Assembly (NCBI GenBank): GCA_022592445.1
Contig: JABYQR010000118.1
Span: 52,191 to 116,190 of the forward strand
DNA length: 64,000 bases
From: Cytidiella melzeri
Lineage: Eukaryota > Basidiomycota > Agaricomycetes > Polyporales > Irpicaceae
Direction: 5' to 3'
Below the pieces are notes generated by a model. That model was not told the origin of the DNA. It saw only the letters and a program-made list of their open reading frames with translations, and made no database searches. Shown here one piece after another: positions 22,796 to 52,485 of this stretch (positions are counted from its first letter, which is position 1; every line of letters begins with the position of its first letter). The translations under genes were made by a program, and so were the position numbers.

Positions 22796-22954
22796 TAGTC
22801 TCGTTCCCAGACGTTCGAACGGGGAGACAGTCGCTATCGCTCCTGCCAGAAACGGAAATCCTTCCTGATTGGGACGAAGTTGGGTGTAAAAGTGTGATCG
22901 AGCAAAATGTCATTCGAGTTAGTCTCGTACCCAGACCTCTCGGTAGTCTCGGAA

Positions 22955-23028
22955 CCAGCCGTTTGCGATACCGGATTTGGGAAGCGGAGTTCCAAAAAGA
23001 CAAACAAATCCGGCATGCAAACGTCTGG
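22955..23028. repeat. Terminal hairpin, left end of El1
   Basis: CCAGCCGTTTGC (22955-22966) pairs with GCAAACGTCTGG (23017-23028) with one mismatch, and CCGGATTTG (22971-22979) pairs with CAAATCCGG (23005-23013) perfectly. Together they form a long two-part stem with a 25-base loop. Confidence 0.85.
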
Positions 23029-23067
23029 TGAACTCGGTCAGTGTGGGGTACCGCTCAGTCGCACGTG
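23019..23067 (+). repeat. Inner inverted repeat of El1, left copy
   Basis: Begins AACGTCTGGTG and contains GTCAGTGTGGGGTACCGCTC and AGTCGCACGTG. Its complement is at 29551-29598, with two or three differences around the AACTC/ATTAC positions. It ends in CACGTG, an E-box palindrome shared by several family members at the same place. Confidence 0.9.
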
Positions 23068-23480
23068 ACGTAATCAGGTCGCTCGTCGAGGCCGAATGTA
23101 ACGGACTGTTACCTACAGTGACATGGAGTGAAACTCATTGTAGCTCACCATCCCTTCAATATTTTATTTTTTTAGCATTTCTGTAGGCAGATGGAATGTA
23201 TAGCAATCGTTTTGTGCAAAGTTGGAGTGAGTAGCATAGAAAATCATTGAAGTGTTATTCCTTTACACTATAAACCCAAGGCGCTCATGCTACTGAACGC
23301 GTGACGCAGCCAGTCGCGTCGCGTTGGGATCTAGCGCCCATTATGTGCGTCGTGCCAGTTAATCTCTCCCTCTTGTTAATCTCCTGTCCCTCACGTCCCT
23401 CACGTCCCATACTCTTATTAATATTCTATGGCAATATTACACAAATTTTTATGACCCTTCATCAGTCCTGAGTCGTCGCC

Positions 23481-26400
23481 ATGCCCTCTCAGCCGTGCCA
23501 GCCGGCTAAAAATAATCAAAAGTCTTCGACCGCGAAGAAAGCTGGGCCTACTCGTCCCTCGAATGTTAATACTACCTTAATACATCGTCCTGCTCTTGAA
23601 ATCAACGAAGCCAGTATACCGCTACCCGAAGGCTGCCCAAAATCTGCGCTGCACTTCGAATCTTACCGCATCCTCGAGCAAGCCCGATATGCAGCAAACC
23701 AAGACCCGGAGCGAAGGTATTCATCCTTCGTTACTCGTATGCGGATGGAGAAAGAGATCGCTCGTGTTGCCAATGGGATTGTACCGCGGTTTTTTCAACA
23801 GGACTGCGCTGAGGCCTTTCTCCTCGGGCTCAATACCGGGCTCATTTGCGCTACTGGCTCCGGAAAGACAGAAGCTTTCTTGCTTCCGCTGCTTGCAGAT
23901 CCCATGAGTAAGAGTAAAATCCTTGTGATATCAACACTGAATGCATTAGAGGTGGATCAGGTGAGTAACAGTCATTAGGTACCAAGTTTTCCGACTTACT
24001 GACTGCATGCACATGCTTCTAGGCGGAGAGGTTTCAGCGATACGGGATTTCCGCTGTGGCTGTGAATGGCGAGACGTACGATGATAAGATGCACAATGTA
24101 GGCAGTCATTTTCCCGACACGGAATGGCACTCACCTGAGCGACAGAGACTTGCGCGAGATGAGATCCGTGTGGTGATTACTTCTCCAGAGATGGTCTTCA
24201 AACATCCCCGGTTCTCGCAGCTTGTCCGTGACTCCAAGTGGACAAAGAACCTAATCGGCACTGTTGTAGACGAGGCGCATTGCGTTTTGGAATGGGGGAA
24301 AGAATTCCGGCGCGACTTCGATGATGTGGAGAATACCCGGTCCTACATGTCGCGAAAGCCCATCATGTTCTGCACAGCAACCCTAACACCTGCAATGCTT
24401 GATCAGCTACTCACCAAGCTCTCATTCCCGCGCAGCAACAGCTTCATCCTAAACCTTGGAAACGAGCGTCACAATGTTACGCCCATTGTCTGTCCCATGA
24501 AAGGCCCGATGGACTTTGGTGCCCTCGACTTCATCCTTGACGAAGCCCTCCAGGACCCGCCTCAAGAGCTGGTCACGACCTTGATCTACGCAGAAACGCG
24601 AGCAGTCGTTATGATGATATGGATGTATCTCACGAGAAAGGTCCCACCTAATTCCCCCTACCGCGAACAAATCGAATTTTTGATCTCAACTCGGGATGGA
24701 AGCGTGAAAACCATCGTCTTGGCCAAGTTCTTGAAGAATGTTGTCAAAGTATTAGTTTCGACTGAATGTGTCGGCATGGTACGCAGCTTCAGCATGTGAA
24801 TCATGCGAGAGAGTAATCATCCACTTACAGGGCCTTGATGTCCCGGGAATGCCCCGTATGATCCAGTTTGGTACTCCTCGCTCTCTTCTTGAGTGGCAGC
24901 AGCATGCTGGCCGTGCTGGTCGTGGTGGCGAGCAGTCCTATGCGTTGTTGCTCCTGGAGCCGTCGGTCTCAGAAGTGGTTAATCGCAAGAAGCTTCAGAA
25001 GGTAAAGGAACCACATACCAAGCCTGAGGCCCCTGACGGCATCAAAGCTGAGGACATCGACCCAGGTCTTCCGCCGCAGCGAAAGCGGAAGCGTCAGGGT
25101 GGCAATCAGGCACAGGCACAAGGTACAAATCCCCCAGGCACCAGCCCAGCGGATACCATCGCGAGAACCCAACAGGTAGCTATTGAGAGCGCTGTAGTTG
25201 ACAATATCGGCACACAGGAGGCGATTCTAGACGGCAAGGATATTGAGTATCGGAAGAAAGTTGAAGGAAACATGCGGGAGTTTGCACTCACCAAGGAGTG
25301 CCGACGGAGGATCACTATCAAACACTTTGATGGTCATCCTCCCATGCGCGGTATTTTTTTGTGCATCTCTCTTTTGATCACCCTGAATCTAATACACCAT
25401 ATAGAACTCAACGTCGTTTGCTGTGATAACTGTCTGCGTGCCAGGGGCAGCAATCCCTCGAATCCTATTTGTTTCACCGCGCACGACAATGTGGTTACCG
25501 CGCTCATCAATCGACTGGATTCCCGGTTTCATGAGGTGCAAATCTTGCCTCCAGTCAACCCTGCGATGTTCTCCAATCAAGCAAAGAAACGAGTCACCGG
25601 TCATCTTGCTGCGGTCAAGAAGGCTCTGATTGATCTACGTGAAGACTATTGGCGCGAGTACTACGTTGGCCACATCTTTACCGCAGAAACCATCTTGCCT
25701 GACGACACGCTGACGACTCTTGCTGTTGAGACGAGAATCAAAACCTTGGCTGACTTGAATCTGAGCTTTCCTGGATGGATCTTTGCTGCGGAACTTGGAC
25801 CTCGTACGCTTCAGACTATCGCGGAAACTGATGCTAGCTGGATCGCCACTTACAATGCTGCCAAAAAAGTTCGCACCGATGAGAAAAAGGTTGAGACTGC
25901 CAAGAACAAGCCAATTAACGACGAGATTGTGCGGGAGAAACGATGGCGTGAACGCGAGGAGATCCGTGTTGCAAGACTTGTTGAACAGCATGGCGATGGA
26001 TGGAAGCAATTTCAGCCCACGGACGGAAGCTTTACTGCTCCCGCTGTTCCTCTCACATCCTCGTCAACATGCCCAAACACCCCTCCTCGGTACTCTACAC
26101 CTGCTTCTGTCCCTCATGGCTACTATACTGCGCCGTCTACTCCAGGCTTTCAAACACCGTCTTATCCTTACGCTGGCTCCTATCCTACGCCATCAACACC
26201 ACAGCATGTTTCATTTGCATCGTCTCCGTCCATTCTGACCACATTTGCATCGTCTCCGTCCATTCCGACCACATCTGCATCATTGCCGACCACTCCGACC
26301 ACATATGCATCATCTTCGACCGCTCCGTTTACGTTTGCATCGTCTCCGACAATTCCGCTTGCATTTGCATCACCACATCCACCATTCCCCACCCATGCAT

Positions 26401-26561
26401 CCGGTTATTACCTACCACACAGTGCAGCCGCGTCAACAAATCAGCATTATCCCACCCCTCCGATAACCCCTGTAGCATCATCCTCGCAGAGCATTAATTA
26501 TCATGTACCACCGCCCACGCAGGCATCACAGACGTTTTCATGGCGTTTGCCAAAACAATAA
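23481..26561 (+). CDS. RecQ-family ATP-dependent DNA helicase carried by El1
   Basis: Starts MPSQPCQPAKNNQKSSTAKK at ATG 23481, with three introns (after LEVDQ; inside CVGM|GLDV; inside PMR|ELNV), giving about 970 aa. Helicase motifs in order: Walker A ATGSGKTEAF (about residue 130), motif II VVDEAHCVLEWG, motif III CTATLT, and QQHAGRAGRGG (motif VI). A RecQ-like zinc region follows: ECRRRITIKHFDG then, across the third intron, ELNVVCCDNCL. The C-terminus is a long Ser/Thr/Pro-rich tail with a five-copy 10-residue repeat. It would be a 3'-5' DNA helicase by family. It converges with the DUF6589-type gene, stops 16 bp apart, and both lie inside the TIRs, so its role is probably in element replication or excision (inference). 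Confidence 0.9.
26221..26370 (+). repeat. 30-bp coding minisatellite, five copies
   Basis: Five 30-bp units, each close to CGTCTCCGTCCATTCCGACC plus ACATTTGCAT, encode decapeptides near SSPSIPTTFA in the helicase tail. Units 1 and 2 are nearly identical; units 3-5 have diverged. The length keeps the frame. Copy-number change would alter only tail length. Confidence 0.9.
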
Positions 26562-26577
26562 ATGAATACTTGTTTTA

Positions 26578-29403
26578 CTACTGTACAAATTGTGGCTCAA
26601 GCTCCATGACATCTACAGCAGCTGCGTCTCGTGTGTTCAGTGCGAGATTGTCTAACCGTTGCAGTACCATCTCCGGTGTGTCAAAATCCTCAGTTGTTGA
26701 CTTATCTTGCACACGTCCATCAGCCCATCTCTTCATCATAGCTTCCAACGTGTTCGGATTGCAGCCTGCGAGAAAGACGTCCTTGATGCGTTCATCAGAG
26801 GGTAGGTGGCGACCAGGCTTGCGAACATGTGCGTTCGCCTCGCGGTACTTCCCTTGCAGCAAGACAACATCACCTTCGTGCTCAGGAGAGGTGTGTGATT
26901 TTCCTCGGCGGAAGTGATTGAATTCATGTTCGACGTGGTCCTTCAGCTTGCGCTGGGTGGGAATGGAGGCAGAGATTTTCTTGATGTAGTCCCACGTCGC
27001 GTAGGGACCGTGAGCTCCGAATATAACCTGTAATGTAATTGTGAGCACAAGAGACAAGAAGAAATACGGCAAATACGCTCACCTTGATATCCCGAACATT
27101 GTGCTCCTGGACCATGTCGTATGCCAGGAATCCGTTCTCGTGTCCTGTCGTGTTTGCGAGCCAGCAATAACGCATCAAGAAAGATCTATGAAATATTTTA
27201 GTAGGACAGCGCGGAAAACTTGAGAAACTCACTTCAGGTCATCCGGCCACTCACGCCATAGGCCCTGCATGATTTCGAGAACCTCATGGGTGTAGTTGTG
27301 GCTTCCGCTTCCATGGAAGCGGAAGAGGAGCCGTGGAAGCATCAGCTCCATGCGACCAACATCGCCCGTGGACATTGCGTCGTCGAAGTTAAGGTAGTTG
27401 AGAACGTCGCGGCAGAACATCACGCCCTGTATTAACAGGTCATCTTGCTCTGCACGCGGACATTTTCGCACCTTTTCAATGGCCGCGGTAGAGGCAAAGT
27501 CCTCGAATATCTTGACAGCAAGCTCGTGGAGGGCATGGGGTGTGAAAGTAGTCAAGTCGGCCAAATCTTCGACGTCACTGACGGTGGCCCAGATGTCGCG
27601 GAAACGAGCCTCGGCGGTGTGTTTCAGAGTACTGCGAAAGTCGTAGTGGAAAGTGCCTTGCACAGTGGCAGCGGCGTGTAGGGATTTTCGGCCCATGTTA
27701 TTGAAGGCGTGCTTGAGTCCTAAGTTTTCGCTTGTACCGTAGTGCTGCTTGCGAATTGTCATCTCCTCGTTGAGTTGGGTGTGGAACCAGCCATAGATTT
27801 CAAAGAACTGTTCGAAGCGTTGGCGGTGATTCATGTCGAAGCTCCTATCTCGCTTGACGGACCGAATGCGAACCGTTGTGAGTTGATCACCAATCCAGAC
27901 AATGAGGCGGTCGAGGAACGGTTCACGGAGTGCACGCTCGCCGTCAAGATCGAGTTGGCGTAACCACTCCTGCAAAACCCGGCGGTTGCCTTCCTGCGAC
28001 GCCTCTTCCATGTGGACAGTATCGAGCATGTACTGGCATGTTGCATGCTCCTTGCCAGTGGGGAGTTGCTGGACAGGATCGGGACGAGTGAAGAGGGGAT
28101 GGGTGCGGTGCTCCCAGTCTGCAAAAGCGGGATGGAGGAGCAGCTGTTTCTTGATGATGTAGATGTGGTCTTCGCGGATACGCGGGCCAGCCGCAATCTC
28201 GTGCATGAAGACATCGCGCGCGGTAATTGGGTTCTGGCATCCAGCAGCGCGCTGCGCCATGTAGGCGATGCGGTTGGGAGCTATGGCTGTGGGATCCTTG
28301 ACGATGTAGATGGTGCCGCATGTGCCATTGTCGAAGTGGTTTTGGTGGTCGTTGCGCATCTCGTAAACCCTGAACGGAATGTTCAGGTTGTCGTGGCCGC
28401 CAAAAAAAACGTAACGAATGATATCGTCGATCATTCGGCGTCGATTCGACTCCGAAAGCTCGACAATACCAGCGTACACCCATTTTTGGCTCATGGTGAA
28501 GCCAAACAGGTGTGTTGTGTCGTTCGCCTTGGCTGCGAGACCGCACGACTTGAGGTAGATACTGAGGAACTTTTGGTAGCGACAACGTCGCTGCGACCGG
28601 TTGTAGTGGAGGATGGTACCGCTTATAAAGATGCGCTATGGAAGATGTGAGCTATAAATTCATGCGGGAAATATGTACACTTACCGGCTCGTGGTCCTTC
28701 GTCTTCCTGCGCTTCTTCTGCAGGGGTGTGCACGAGAGAGAGTCCATGATGTCCCAGTACGTAGGCATCATGGTCTTCATTCTCTCGATGTCGTCCTTGA
28801 GTCGGATGCCAAGGAGGTATTCCTCCGACATGTCCTCGGGGGGCGATTCGAGCTGTGGCGCGAACTCGCGCATCTCGCGGTTGAGTCGTGCCTTGACGTT
28901 GTCGACGGCCCACTCGTTCATGGCGTTGAGGGCGCCTCGCGTCGTGACACCCCGTTCGTGTCCGCGAGGTGGTTTGTGCCAGTTCTTGAGTATCCCAGGA
29001 AGTTGCTCGCAGTGCATGAGCGCAGTGCGAGCGTATCTGATGTTGATTAGTTAAGCAGAAAGCATATACAACTTGTTACTCACCGGATAGTCGACTGCTC
29101 CGACACCATATGCCCCGGGATCTCCAAATTCCAGCTCAGGTAGTGTAGGAACGAGACGGTGTCCAGTCCTTGCGTCGCCATGTAGTCGATAACGGAAACG
29201 AGGCGACGGGAAATTGTTGCGTGGTCCAGATTTGCGAGCGACTGGAACGCGAGGTTCGTGCGTGCCATGCCACCGCGTCGATGAACTCGTGCTTGAATTT
29301 CGTCCGCTTCTGCATCCGTGATTGAAGGACGCTCGTTGTCGTGTTGTTCGTTGTCGTCAGGATCAAGGTCGTAGATGGGGGGGAAAGGAAATCCGGGCGG
29401 CAT
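26578..29403 (-). CDS. DUF6589-type protein carried by El1
   Basis: Starts MPPGFPFPPIYDLDPDDNEQ at ATG 29403 and ends DVMELEPQFVQ at 26578; about 850 aa in six exons. Segments in order: MARTNLAFQSLANLDHATIS; LMHCEQLPGILKNWHKPPRG; WVYAGIVELSESNRRRMIDD; NIPFRVYEMRNDHQNHFDNG; MLPRLLFRFHGSGSHNYTHE then VLEIMQGLWREWPDDLK; and a C-terminal HVEHEFNHFRRGKSHTSPEH. The RFHGSGSHNYTHEVLE core and overall layout match, as far as I recall, the fungal DUF6589 family, which is very abundant in Agaricomycetes and has no assigned activity. Conserved Asp, Glu and His residues are plentiful, so a nuclease or transposase activity is possible but unproven. No membrane segment or signal peptide. Confidence 0.75.
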
Positions 29404-29550
29404 GAAGGGCGAGGGCAAGATACACTTGAAGGACGAAACACGAGGTCGTGATGGATTTCATTAAGGGTCGCGTTATCTAATCTACACATGAAACGCGAAT
29501 AAAAATAATCAGGCGCCCGCTGATGATCTCGAAAAGTCTTTGATTTCGAG

Positions 29551-29598
29551 CACGTGCGACTGAGCGGTACCCCACACTGACCGATTACACCAGACGTT
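29551..29598 (-). repeat. Inner inverted repeat of El1, right copy
   Basis: Starts CACGTGCGACTGAGCGGTAC and ends CACCAGACGTT, the reverse complement of the left copy at 23019-23067 apart from a few bases. It lies about 150 bp upstream of the DUF6589-type start codon and probably overlaps that gene's promoter. Confidence 0.9.
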
Positions 29599-29689
29599 CA
29601 GGAGCGCGGTTCATTGTGTCTTTTTCGAACTCCGCGCTCCAAACAAGGAAGGAGCATCGGCGACGTCCGCGCTCTCCCTTAACGTCTGG
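29590..29689. repeat. Terminal hairpin, right end of El1
   Basis: CCAGACGTTCAGGAGCGCGG (29590-29609) pairs with the complement CCGCGCTCTCCCTTAACGTC plus TGG (29667-29689) with small bulges. The pairing extends beyond the nine bases shared by all ends into sequence unique to this end. Confidence 0.75.
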
Positions 29690-30523
29690 TTCGAGACTAA
29701 CCTCTCGGGGCCAGTCACTGCGTTCCTAAAAAGGCAGATGCGCGCGTGTGCTGTTTTGGGAAGAAAAAGGCAAATCAAAAAGCACGCGCGGGCCCCGAGG
29801 GTCTGGTGCATTTCGTATAGATTGGGTGTAGATCATCCGCACGTGATGGATTTCTGCGCGAATGATTGGGCGTTTACAATTATTGGCTCTGTACGCTACT
29901 CCATACTAGTAGTACGACTTGAATTGCACACTCCTTGCTTGTCCCTCCCTCTTGAACTTTTTGCGTGAAATATTTCTATCTTTTACTGGTTTAAATATAG
30001 GAGTATTCATATTGGTATTCTAACGCATTTTAAGACAAGGGGAATGAGAGATAAACGAGAACGAGAGGATGCAAGCGGAGGTCGCATGCAGTAATATTGA
30101 AAGCGCCCACTCGCGGACGCGTTCAAGACGCGAGAATGAACGTGATGGGATGTCACAGGCTGTGACTTGAGCCGAAAGTGAGCATAGCTTACCATCCCTC
30201 GGTCATATTACTTGGTCAGAATTTCTACAGGCAGAAATAGCGCATAGGAATGTGTTTCTGCAATGTCGAGTGGGTAGCGCAAAAATTGATCAAATTTATA
30301 TTCGTTTACACCGCACTGAGGGCGCTTCAATGTGTGACCTATTGTGACGCAGTCGAAACTTGGAGTCGCTCTGTCCTTCGATGCGGTCATGTGCGAATGA
30401 TCTACACCCAATCACTACGAAGTTCACCAGACGTTCGGGGAGCGAGCTGTCTTTTTTTCTCGCCATCCCCTGTCCTAATCGGGATTCCCAAAACGTCTGG
30501 GTACGAGACTAATTCGAGTGAGT

Positions 30524-30577
30524 GTTCGAACGTCTGGTCCGTTTCGCCCTTGTGGGTGTAGATGACCCTGTCACGTG
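30524..30577 (+). repeat. El3 left hairpin arm and inner inverted repeat
   Basis: GTTCGAACGTCTGG (30524-30537) is the perfect 14-bp complement of CCAGACGTTCGAAC at 22807-22820. The two arms are now 7.7 kb apart only because El2 inserted in the loop. The inner repeat TCCGTTTCGCCCTTGTGGGT follows and ends at CACGTG 30572-30577. Confidence 0.85.
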
Positions 30578-30706
30578 CGCTTGATCTATGCGCGTCTGTC
30601 TAATCTTTCCGTTGATAGCACACGTCGGGCAACACATCATCCCGCTTGTCGTATTTTATTGCCTTCCCCTCGTCCCCCTCGTCCATCAATATACTAATTT
30701 ATAATC

Positions 30707-31430
30707 TCATAAATCATGGCATCCAAAGAAGAATATGATATTTTCTCCGCCCCTTCCTGACGTGCCACTCCACTTGCCGTTATTCATGGTGACCTTGATT
30801 TTGTGGTAGATGTGTGGGAGGGTAGGCCCGTACTGGTTTACCTCAGCGCCTTCGAGCTCGAGCTTGATCGTCGTCGAGTTCTTAGCCGTCTGAGGCATCA
30901 GCATGAATGGGCCCCATGCACTCTCCTGGATGTCGACGAGCAAACTGGGTTGTCCAGATGGGTCGTTTAAAAAGCGCCGCTGACATGCATCCTGCGTTGA
31001 GCACTACTTGTGCAAGCTGCGGTACGCACGCCGCGTAGTCATTTTTCTTGTCAGCGGTGGTTGCACGAGCGGGGGACGTACCTTGAGGCGTTTCTTCTTT
31101 GCATTGAGAATTTGAGCTTTGACTTCTTTTTAGATTTCAAGCAACGCTTGGACGCGTTCCTCAGATGTGATTAACTGAGAGGCTTCGAACGCGAGCGCTC
31201 GCACAACATGGAGGGTGTTAAGTCTGGGAGTATGCAAACAATAACGGGTGTGTGTGCACTCACCCAACCCCACTCTCGTCTACCTCTGCCGACTTGATGC
31301 GAGCTACCACCCTCGCGTTTTTCGGCTCCAGGTGCTCCCTCCGTTCTCTTGTCCGCGCTGTCTGACTCGAGTCGCGCCTCGAAGACCTCCCCAGAGGTAT
31401 GGCAAAGGTGAGAATGTGCAAAGAAGTTTC
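30707..31430 (-). pseudogene. Decayed ORF inside El3, cut by an LTR
   Basis: The minus strand shows disjointed protein-like pieces: RREHLEPKNARVVARIKSAE ending at a plausible gtgagt donor, then ALAFEASQLITSEERVQALL interrupted by an in-frame stop, then SAWGPFMLMPQTAKNSTTIK and LELEGAEVNQYGPTLPHIYH. The upstream end is truncated by the solo LTR at 31436. The pieces match neither the helicase nor the DUF6589-type protein of El1 by eye. Probably cargo or a captured gene that has degenerated. Family unrecognised. Confidence 0.4.
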
Positions 31431-31435
31431 ATATT

Positions 31436-32026
31436 TGTTAAAACTATATAATATAATATGATATGATATGTAGTTTCCCACGCCTTATTACAAGGACGCT
31501 TTAGGTAGCAGAGTTCCCACAGTCTTGATATGGGAATTATGCAGCCGTATATGGAAACTCTAGTAGTAACCATCACATTAGCTGAGACGTACAGATATGG
31601 GTTGTAGTAGTACTATACATATATGTACGCCTGTGTTCTAGTAGCATAGGAAATGACATGGAAAGCACGTATGACTCCAGAGGATGCCTAAAGCATACAT
31701 CTGAGGACAAGTACTAGCATGAGTCATTTACTCATTATGTACGCCTCTGGTACAAGTGCTGAGCCTAGTCATACAATGAGTCATGCATGAGTCATGCACT
31801 CATAGCATGAGTCATGCATGAGTCATGCACTCATAGCATGAGTCATGCATGAGTCATGCACTCAGTAGTACAGTAGAATAGCTGAAGTAGACATGTATAG
31901 TAGTCGCTTACATAAGTAGATACAGACATGTATATAAGCAGAGCTGCTGAAGAAGCAAGAATAAAAAAAGACTCATCTTCGAAGCTTAACAGCCTCTACC
32001 CCTCGCACACATATTCCACTTTGTTA
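31436..32026 (+). mobile_element. Solo LTR (591 bp), intact copy
   Basis: TGTTAAAAC...CCACTTTGTTA, flanked by ATATT at 31431-31435 and 32027-32031 (ATATTT if the element begins GTTAAAAC). It matches the nested pair at 3849-4976 over the whole length. It carries an expanded array of ATGAGTCAT words at 31718-31865 and TATATAAG near 31931. No coding region and no partner LTR nearby, so it is a solo LTR inserted within El3. Confidence 0.8.
31718..31865. promoter_or_regulatory. Array of seven bZIP/GCN4-type sites in the LTR
   Basis: ATGAGTCAT occurs seven times, six of them in a block built on a roughly 31-bp tandem unit containing two sites each. TGAGTCA is the consensus of the GCN4/AP-1 bZIP class. 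The array lies upstream of TATATAAG, where LTR enhancer elements would sit. Regulation by an amino-acid-starvation or stress bZIP factor is an inference. Confidence 0.6.
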
Positions 32027-32199
32027 ATATTTGATAGCAGCGGGTGGTACAGGGTGAAAGGCGACACGGTGGCTGAGGGCGACAATGAGAGAGAGGGTGG
32101 CTGAACCGAACGAGCTGCTGTTGTCGCACTGGTGGTGAGCTATCAAGGTAACAGATTCGAGTTCTCACCGTTATCTTATCGCGAACGCCCACAGATTAC

Positions 32200-32543
32200 T
32201 AGTCTCGGTTCCAGACGTCAGGGAGACAGGGAGACAAAGGCAGAGACGGTCGCGGAGCTCCCTGGGGCAGTTGCTTGTGCTCCTGCTATATATAGTAATT
32301 TTCAGGGATGCTGAATGCAGAAAATGATGGCGCGGATTGTTAGTTTGAGAGTGTGCTGACGTCTGGTCTTTTTCGCCCTTGTGGGTGTATAGATCATTCC
32401 ACCGAGAAGCGAATGCGCCATCATTATCTCAATTCGGACACTTCTCACCCTGCCAAAAATCTCCTTTTATGGCAGGAGCCCTGGCGACTGCCCCCGGGAG
32501 CACCGCGACCGTGTCTCCCTCTAAACGTCTGGGAACGAGACTA
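32200..32543. mobile_element. El5, 344-bp relative of the TAGTCTCG family
   Basis: Left end TAGTCTCGGTTCCAGACGTC at 32200; right end AAACGTCTGGGAACGAGACT plus A at 32543. The 9-bp duplication ACAGATTAC is exact (32191-32199 and 32544-32552). A left hairpin (CCAGACGTCAG 32211-32221 with CTGACGTCTGG 32356-32366) and one inner end (TTCGCCCTTGTGGGTGTA from 32371) are present, but the matching right inner repeat is missing. It lies within the right end of El3. Non-coding. Confidence 0.85.
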
Positions 32544-32594
32544 ACAGATTACGACATGTGACAGGGTCATCTACACCCGGAAGGGCGAAACGGA

Positions 32595-32755
32595 CCAGAC
32601 GTTATGCTGACACGGATCATGGTCTTTCACGAAAAAACGGTTTCGCATCAAACAGTGTCCAAAAATGGAAAGATTTCTATTTTAGGTACGAGCGTCAGCG
32701 AGTCGTCTTTTGTCTCGTCCCCGAGCGTAGCGAGGTCGTGTCCCATAACGTCTGG
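32595..32755. repeat. Terminal hairpin, right end of El3
   Basis: CCAGACGTTATG (32595-32606) pairs perfectly with CATAACGTCTGG (32744-32755), leaving a 137-base loop. The last three pairs (ATG/CAT) are not shared with the left hairpin of the same element, whose stem continues CGAAC/GTTCG. Confidence 0.85.
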
Positions 32756-32766
32756 GAACGAGACTA

Positions 32767-41003: not shown

Positions 41004-41563
41004 GCTGACTTGGAAAGTAGCTATATGGGTGGTACAGTGATTTGCGTATTGGTTTGACGGTCGTCCCAAAGTGTTTGTGACTCAGATCCTCGCGCAGCAG
41101 CACCGTGCTTGCTCAGGCACTGAGCTATGTACACTGTAGTGTTTTGCAATATAAAACGGAATCCTTAGTCTCGGTCCCAGACGTCTAGACGGACTTTCCT
41201 TACGAGGCAGGAGACAGGGAGAAACGAGAACAATGGAAAGTAGCCTCTTCGTCTTTTTCTTGCCGCTTTCAGGTGCCTGGGGAAAATACTATGAGCCACA
41301 TGTTGTTTTAGCTCTCACAAACGATTTTACTTTGAAACGACCGTCAAAGCAATATGCAAATCGCTGTAGTAGCGTTTGAAGTGACAGGCTGTGGCGCGAC
41401 CCACTCAACGTTTGATGTTGAGGCCTGATGCGATGGAACGCCCTAGCATGAAAAGTGACATAACCCTGCACAGCTTGGCGGTACTAAGTATTCAATAAGC
41501 ACACAGGCACTGATACTGTCAGAGGATATAAGATACAATACATTCGGCAGCCGCCACAACTGA
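41004..41563. other. Intergenic with one solo TAGTCTCG end
   Basis: Contains the element fragment at 41167-41230 and otherwise nothing coding. It separates CTR (3' end) from the NADAR gene (5' side). Confidence 0.4.
41167..41230 (+). repeat. Solo terminus of the TAGTCTCG family
   Basis: TAGTCTCGGTCCCAGACGTC followed by TAGACGG and a GGAGACAGGGAGAAACGAG tract resembles the left end of El5. No matching CGAGACTA end is found nearby, so it is a truncated or deleted copy. Confidence 0.65.
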
Positions 41564-52166: not shown

Positions 52167-52485
52167 TTAGTAGCCCGGTCGAGAAGCGGGACAGCTGGCT
52201 GGTTGTCTGATTGCGACGATGATGTTGTTGGATTATCTCATGTACTTGTAAGAACTCACGGCTGTATAGCAGAATCATTGCCTTATCGAAATGCAATGCT
52301 CGGGTGAGTCGGCGGGTCATTATGCAGGAGCACAGGCAACTGCGACGCACGAGTGATTTGGAGGGCCAAAACAACTACCGTTGTAAGATTCCTCGCTTAA
52401 CTAGAGAACGTGCGTCTGACAACACATGACAGGATGTGTGGACAGCTTTGATAACTACTGACACAAAGCAAGCACTGACAAGTGT
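52167..52485. other. Convergent 3' flanks
   Basis: Separates AMS1 from the convergent ICMT-like gene. No gene seen. Confidence 0.45.

Follow-up and report, generated by a model that had tools for sequence, protein, structure and literature searches.

Within a 64,000-nt window of the genome of Cytidiella melzeri, a wood-decay polypore, a transposon at positions 22944–29699 carries a RecQ-like helicase gene and, facing it, a gene for a DUF6589 protein that is predicted to be its transposase. The window corresponds to positions 52191–116190 of contig C22 in an assembly of 49.7 Mb and 731 contigs, to which all genome-wide counts refer. We regard the element as an autonomous AcademH-type DNA transposon, with a probability of about 0.86; this assignment rests on the partner gene and the length of the target site duplication, not on the transposase sequence. 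The transposon class is already known, and the additions are the identity predicted for DUF6589 and the covarying foldback ends.

An intact element in a restorable target

The element has TAGTCTCG ends, is flanked on both sides by an exact copy of the 9-bp duplication ACCTCTCGG and encloses exactly two genes, which are intact, intron-containing and convergent (Table 1). Its left and right termini are identical in their first 8 bases and match further after a shift by one base. Inside these terminal inverted repeats (TIRs) lies another inverted repeat of 48 nt, the arms of which share 96% identity, and both tips fold back on themselves. When the insert is removed in silico together with one copy of the duplication, what is left is an 827-bp element. 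Over its whole length it aligns with two 823-bp elements elsewhere in this genome that carry no such interruption (98.2% and 98.4% identity), and it has an 8-bp duplication of its own, ATTCGAGT. We are therefore dealing with a real DNA transposon that inserted cleanly into a relative found uninterrupted elsewhere. The original prediction, made from the letters of the window, had described the matching ends with their duplication, the inner repeat, the structured ends, the two convergent genes and the clean insertion, and it held on each of these points. A 200-nt query from the left end gave 41 genome matches, 17 of which stop exactly at base 126, the limit of the helicase-side module; this recurrent boundary suggests that the genome contains many non-autonomous copies.

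Recurrence of the gene pair and its ends

A profile search of the genome for DUF6589 (PF20231) yielded 120 matches, merged into 82 loci. A search with the window helicase gave 63 matches in 33 loci; for 24 of these a DUF6589 locus is present at a distance of up to 3 kb, in convergent orientation every time (24/24). Adding a recQ_fam profile search raised the number of helicase loci to 53, and 36 of these have a DUF6589 locus at most 3.6 kb away, the closest such neighbour being convergent in 36/36 cases; the chance of a random locus being as near to DUF6589 is about 2%. Conversely, a helicase is found no more than 5 kb away from 37 of the 82 DUF6589 loci; 36 of these loci are convergent with it and one is divergent, the latter being a second DUF6589 locus on contig C17 that adjoins an already paired helicase. 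Since each search ranks and scores the best candidates only, the locus counts are lower bounds. The two-gene composition that the original prediction derived from a single copy is thus borne out by the repeated pairing in this genome.

The ends were examined for 12 of the 36 pairs, namely for ten and then for two more chosen since both of their end motifs were listed. TAGTCT ends with a duplication occur in seven of the 12 (six of 9 bp and one of 8 bp), as had been anticipated for flanks of the gene pair; the two added pairs are flanked by copies of CTCGTATTG (9 bp) and of CCGAATGA (8 bp). A scan of flanks from the same locus revealed TAGTCT ends with an exact 8–10-bp duplication in five of ten loci. 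In the control, which combined flanks of different loci, 14 hits appeared in nine of 90 combinations, none of them (0/14) with TAGTCT ends. Because mismatched flanks never gave such ends, ends plus duplication are found together more often than by chance. Before the two pairs were added, 14 elements of any size had such ends, twelve with duplications of 9 bp and two with 8 bp, and the duplicated sequences vary between elements. The motif TAGTCTCGNNNCCAGACG occurs 67 + 68 times in the genome, its reversed control 0 times. One pair element (L038:735–7257) has both TAGTCTCG ends and differing flanks, i.e. no duplication; it is perhaps recombined or old.

The helicase and the predicted transposase

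Both gene models were spliced by eye. The helicase exceeds the Pfam cut-offs for DEAD and Helicase_C, its best NCBIfam model is recQ_fam (E = 1.3e-42), and its nearest solved chain is BLM (E = 4.8e-26). The tail of the gene (window positions 26182–26402) contains an in-frame 30-bp minisatellite in six staggered copies.

The DUF6589 protein matches PF20231 with E = 1.3e-111; across 95% of its length it shows 100% identity with a protein recorded from Cytidiella melzeri. No other Pfam family matches it at E ≤ 0.001, and the DUF6589 profile found no match among PDB sequences up to E 10. When its predicted model was compared by VIA-align, the first 34 rows were DDE transposases or RAG1, with Hermes (hAT) and the P element as the closest folds. 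The model contains an RNase H core with the two aspartates and the glutamate that define DDE enzymes, and a long helical stretch ahead of the last acidic residue. D261, D429 and E674 are conserved in 69, 72 and 72 of 72 DUF6589 relatives, and D261 and E674 fall, by offsets at two alignment ends, on D180 and E572 of Hermes, which we take to be DDE residues of that enzyme. On the strength of the VIA-align rows and the conserved acidic residues, the DUF6589 protein is predicted to be an RNase H-fold DDE transposase. It had been named as the candidate recombinase with fold prediction as a check, and the model indeed resembles transposases, not a housekeeping protein.

Profile searches for PF20231 proteins returned at least 77 at E ≤ 0.001 and at least 162 at E ≤ 1. 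Many agaricomycete species names appear among the matches listed (the best 120 of 162), so that the transposase seems to be widespread in agaricomycetes. Within the C. melzeri genome, eight of 30 loci (L002–L031) encode a second, diverged DUF6589 type in which GDLGT replaces GDQLT (L010, L011, L016, L020, L025, L027, L028 and L030). A convergent RecQ-like gene adjoins four of them (contigs C179, C290, C405 and C568); for those on C1, C195, C39 and C367:31144 no RecQ-like neighbour is listed. A third type, L031:1030–2088, shows YDNIN and GDQST motifs, is apparently fragmented and has no helicase locus near.

Foldback tips with covarying stems

In the eight helicase/DUF6589 elements for which both end sequences were available, all 16 tips have an inverted, mostly matching copy of their own CCAGAC and the next bases, located 67–155 nt inward. 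Six short-spaced elements have a tip-to-copy distance of 67–69 nt on the helicase side and 83–94 nt on the DUF6589 side, from which the elements on C127 and C161 deviate (125–155 nt). As single strands, the 12 short-spaced ends fold with z scores from -1.79 to -6.80; the ends of C127 and C161, cut at 120 nt and hence short of their inner arms, show no folding beyond that of shuffled sequences (z -0.07 to 1.49). Inner CTGGTG is present in 19 of 43 ends collected, and a looser inner-site pattern in 25 of the 32 ends of 16 elements. The inner site occurs in 16/16 ends of the eight helicase/DUF6589 elements, versus 1/8 ends of four miniature inverted-repeat transposable elements (MITEs, 292–344 bp).

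Within each end, the stem letters of the two arms agree, but an element's two ends have different stem sequences. Of 128 variable positions, 98 match between arms of the same end, where permutations give 58.6 on average (standard deviation 5.1; 0/20000), and 59 match when arms are swapped between the ends of one element; the observed value is reached in 2 of 256 swap patterns. Eight of the 16 elements entered this test, leaving out L037, L038, M823b and M1045 as close relatives, and M344, M321, M309 and M292, in which one end or both lack the inner site. At the left end of L033 only 3 of 8 variable positions match, and for C161 within-end and swapped matches are equal (11 and 11). A stem of 13 pairs, defined on the same 11 helicase-side-type ends on which it was evaluated (one more short-spaced end, in L001, was left out), is 95.1% paired (0/500 shuffles); slid out of register, 23–41% of the cells pair. 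In these ends 12 cells are altered on both sides versus a shuffled mean of 3.1 (0/500), and covariation amounts to 0.297 versus 0.110 (0/500). Weaker signals come from the five pairs altered on both sides (versus 2.4; 3/500) and the 8 further pair types (versus 6.2; 41/500). The 11 sequences are related, L036 and L037 being near-copies and L038, L039, L049 and L058 resembling one group, and the shuffles ignore this kinship.

The two copies of the subterminal motif (about 36 nt, five elements) within an element are 83–95% alike, and copies from different elements reach 78% at most. Since motif and stem vary in opposite ways, one part of the end, the motif, looks sequence-specific and the other, the foldback, shape-specific. 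The foldback might instead represent a pair of inverted sites bound by one and the same protein, with no structure involved, a reading that we consider possible but doubtful. It agrees with the constant part, CCAGAC/GTCTGG, which is nearly identical in the 18 ends listed, but not with the variable part, which matches its own partner far more often than the other end of the element, nor with the excess of cells altered on both sides in the helicase-side ends. The original prediction had spoken of hairpin ends, and tips with stems that covary within an end are in line with it.

Combining these features, we tentatively propose a eukaryotic DDE transposon with hairpin-recognised tips, in which the motif would be read by sequence and the tip by shape, DUF6589 would act as the transposase, and the element would bring its own RecQ helicase since palindromic tips need to be extruded or unwound. 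Transposase subunits would contact the subterminal motif of either end through its sequence, as we infer from its near-identity at both ends of an element and its divergence between elements. They would identify the foldback at either tip from its shape and cleave the DNA. RecQ family helicases work 3' to 5', and the one encoded here may help to extrude or open the tips, or clear the gap that strand transfer leaves behind. Attack of the joined ends on target strands 9 bp apart would give rise to the 9-bp duplication.

Relation to AcademH and other transposons

Academ elements have TIRs, AcademX is the Academ group with XPG fusions, and Kojima 2020 is said to be the defining paper for AcademH. 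In the passages available from the literature, a RecQ helicase in Academ is mentioned with reference to Kapitonov et al. (PMC3627910), most fungal Academ copies are stated to contain recognizable domains, e.g. PF00270 and recQ_fam (PMC6416283), and AcademH is described with 9- or 10-bp duplications tied to its helicase (PMC10045372). Further passages report widespread insertions of putative non-autonomous Academ elements in Marasmius oreades (PMC8290104) and, in a survey of co-option in fungi, AcademH, KolobokH or Helitron as the elements to which common helicase domains are attributed (PMC10799480). As far as these passages go, the window element resembles AcademH in its fungal host, its RecQ-type helicase and its 9-bp duplications, and it also has TIRs: a helicase with recQ_fam as best model stands beside the transposase gene, as in the 36 of 53 loci that are paired, and 13 of 16 elements have 9-bp duplications. 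The idea of a class outside the known superfamilies, favoured in the original prediction, had to be abandoned, as both the helicase of Academ and the duplication length of AcademH had already been published.

Several observations weigh against the assignment to AcademH. That DUF6589 may be an Academ transposase is deduced from the helicase partner and the duplication length. Five of the 12 pair loci lack ends plus duplication, no helicase was detected up to 5 kb away from 45 of the 82 DUF6589 loci, and 17 of the 53 helicase loci have no DUF6589 partner; one of these, on C87, is the only recQ_fam match above the family cut-off and is probably a host RecQ. The window helicase itself scores 146.2 bits with recQ_fam, below the curated cut-off of 219.8 bits, and Foldseek found no match at E ≤ 0.001 for DUF6589 (best 0.021 and 0.015). 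Overall, the 16 elements have duplications of 9 bp in 13 cases, of 8 bp in three and of 10 bp in none, whereas 9 or 10 bp are given for AcademH in the passages available, which also do not describe foldback ends with covarying stems. In three protein searches (one of them represented by the best 120 of 162 matches) the named sources are all fungi, whereas AcademH has been reported from animals too, and no relative listed has a Pfam domain besides PF20231. Since only fungal, single-domain relatives are listed, the link to Academ stays indirect.

A separate, unnamed DDE superfamily of DUF6589 elements, which acquired its RecQ helicase independently of AcademH, would work in the same way without being a member. 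The sole Pfam match to DUF6589, duplications of 8–9 instead of 9–10 bp and the lack of an animal homologue among the matches listed (best 120 of 162) speak for it. We nevertheless judge it unlikely, as the kind of helicase, host group, TIRs and 9-bp duplications all agree with what the available passages say of Academ and AcademH, and as it demands a second helicase-bearing fungal class with equal duplication length. Kolobok elements make TTAA target duplications, in contrast to the 9- or 8-bp duplications of varied sequence found here, and on this ground KolobokH was dropped as very improbable. It does share with the window element the nature of a fungal DNA transposon with a RecQ helicase, and is described as restricted to fungi, but its helicase is placed downstream of the transposase domain in the passage available (PMC9587614), whereas it is encoded here by a separate convergent gene. 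Hardly credible, too, is a divergent member of the hAT-, P- or KDZ-like superfamilies with an added helicase. Hermes and the P element are the nearest folds and have the RNase H DDE core and the long stretch before the last acidic residue in common with DUF6589, and three of the 16 duplications have the 8 bp of hAT elements. However, a common DDE fold does not prove membership, neither hAT nor any other Pfam family apart from DUF6589 matched at E ≤ 0.001, PDB sequences gave no match up to E 10, and 13 of the 16 duplications measure 9 bp. Moreover, we know of no helicase gene in hAT or P elements. The telomere-linked RecQ helicase genes of fungi are likewise multicopy and RecQ-like, but subtelomeric according to the passages available (PMC4522978), and they were dropped from consideration; the window copy lies between TIRs beside a transposase gene.

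With AcademH as the preferred reading, DUF6589 would be an Academ transposase, an identification that we did not find in the literature passages and searches covered. The name DUF6589 occurs in no paper text searched, and the four papers containing the string PF20231 are, judged by title, not about transposons. The passages searched, including PMC4455052, tie no hairpin to Academ, PMC3627910 having been searched for Academ and RecQ only.

Features of the window

The element forms the core of a nest (positions 22796–32766): a non-autonomous copy of the type of the contig C127 element, with ends at 22796 and 32766 and no duplication seen, encloses the 823-bp-type element (22920–30511), which in turn encloses the helicase/DUF6589 element. 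When joined, the halves of the outermost relative match one end of an element on contig C127 with 96% identity along 182 nt that span the junction. Both nested inserts sit near one end of the copy that each entered. A 344-bp MITE at 32200–32543 has TAGTCTCG ends and the 9-bp duplication ACAGATTAC, and two further TAGTCTCG...CCAG ends, at 41166 and 53451, have no nearby partner end among those listed.

Table 1. Positions of the features of the helicase/DUF6589 element within the window
Feature	Position	Strand	Remark
Left end, TAGTCTCGGAACCAGCC	starts 22944		TIR
Right TIR, TAGTCTCGAACCAGACG	29677..29699	-	reverse complement, ends at 29699
Target site duplication ACCTCTCGG, left copy	22935..22943	+	exact
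Target site duplication ACCTCTCGG, right copy	29700..29708	+	exact
Left terminal module, 126 nt (TIR, foldback, subterminal motif)	22944..23069	+	genome matches ending there
Inner inverted repeat, left arm (inner hairpin arm and subterminal motif GGTCAGTGTGGGGTACCGCTCAGTCGCACGTG)	23020..23067	+	
Inner inverted repeat, right arm	29551..29598	-	
Left end hairpin, outer arm	22954..22979	+	fold z -4.34
Left end hairpin, inner arm	23005..23029	+	fold z -4.34
Right end hairpin, inner arm	29589..29602	-	fold z -4.35
Right end hairpin, outer arm	29677..29690	-	fold z -4.35
RecQ-like helicase gene, 970 aa	23481..26561	+	3 introns (23961-24022, 24779-24830, 25351-25404)
DUF6589 (PF20231) gene, predicted DDE transposase, 875 aa	26578..29403	-	four introns

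Implications

PF20231/DUF6589, a family of unknown function in many mushroom genomes, acquires a testable identity as the DDE transposase of helicase-bearing transposons. In addition, the covarying foldback ends suggest a reason for which such an element would keep a RecQ helicase, namely that its tips fold back.

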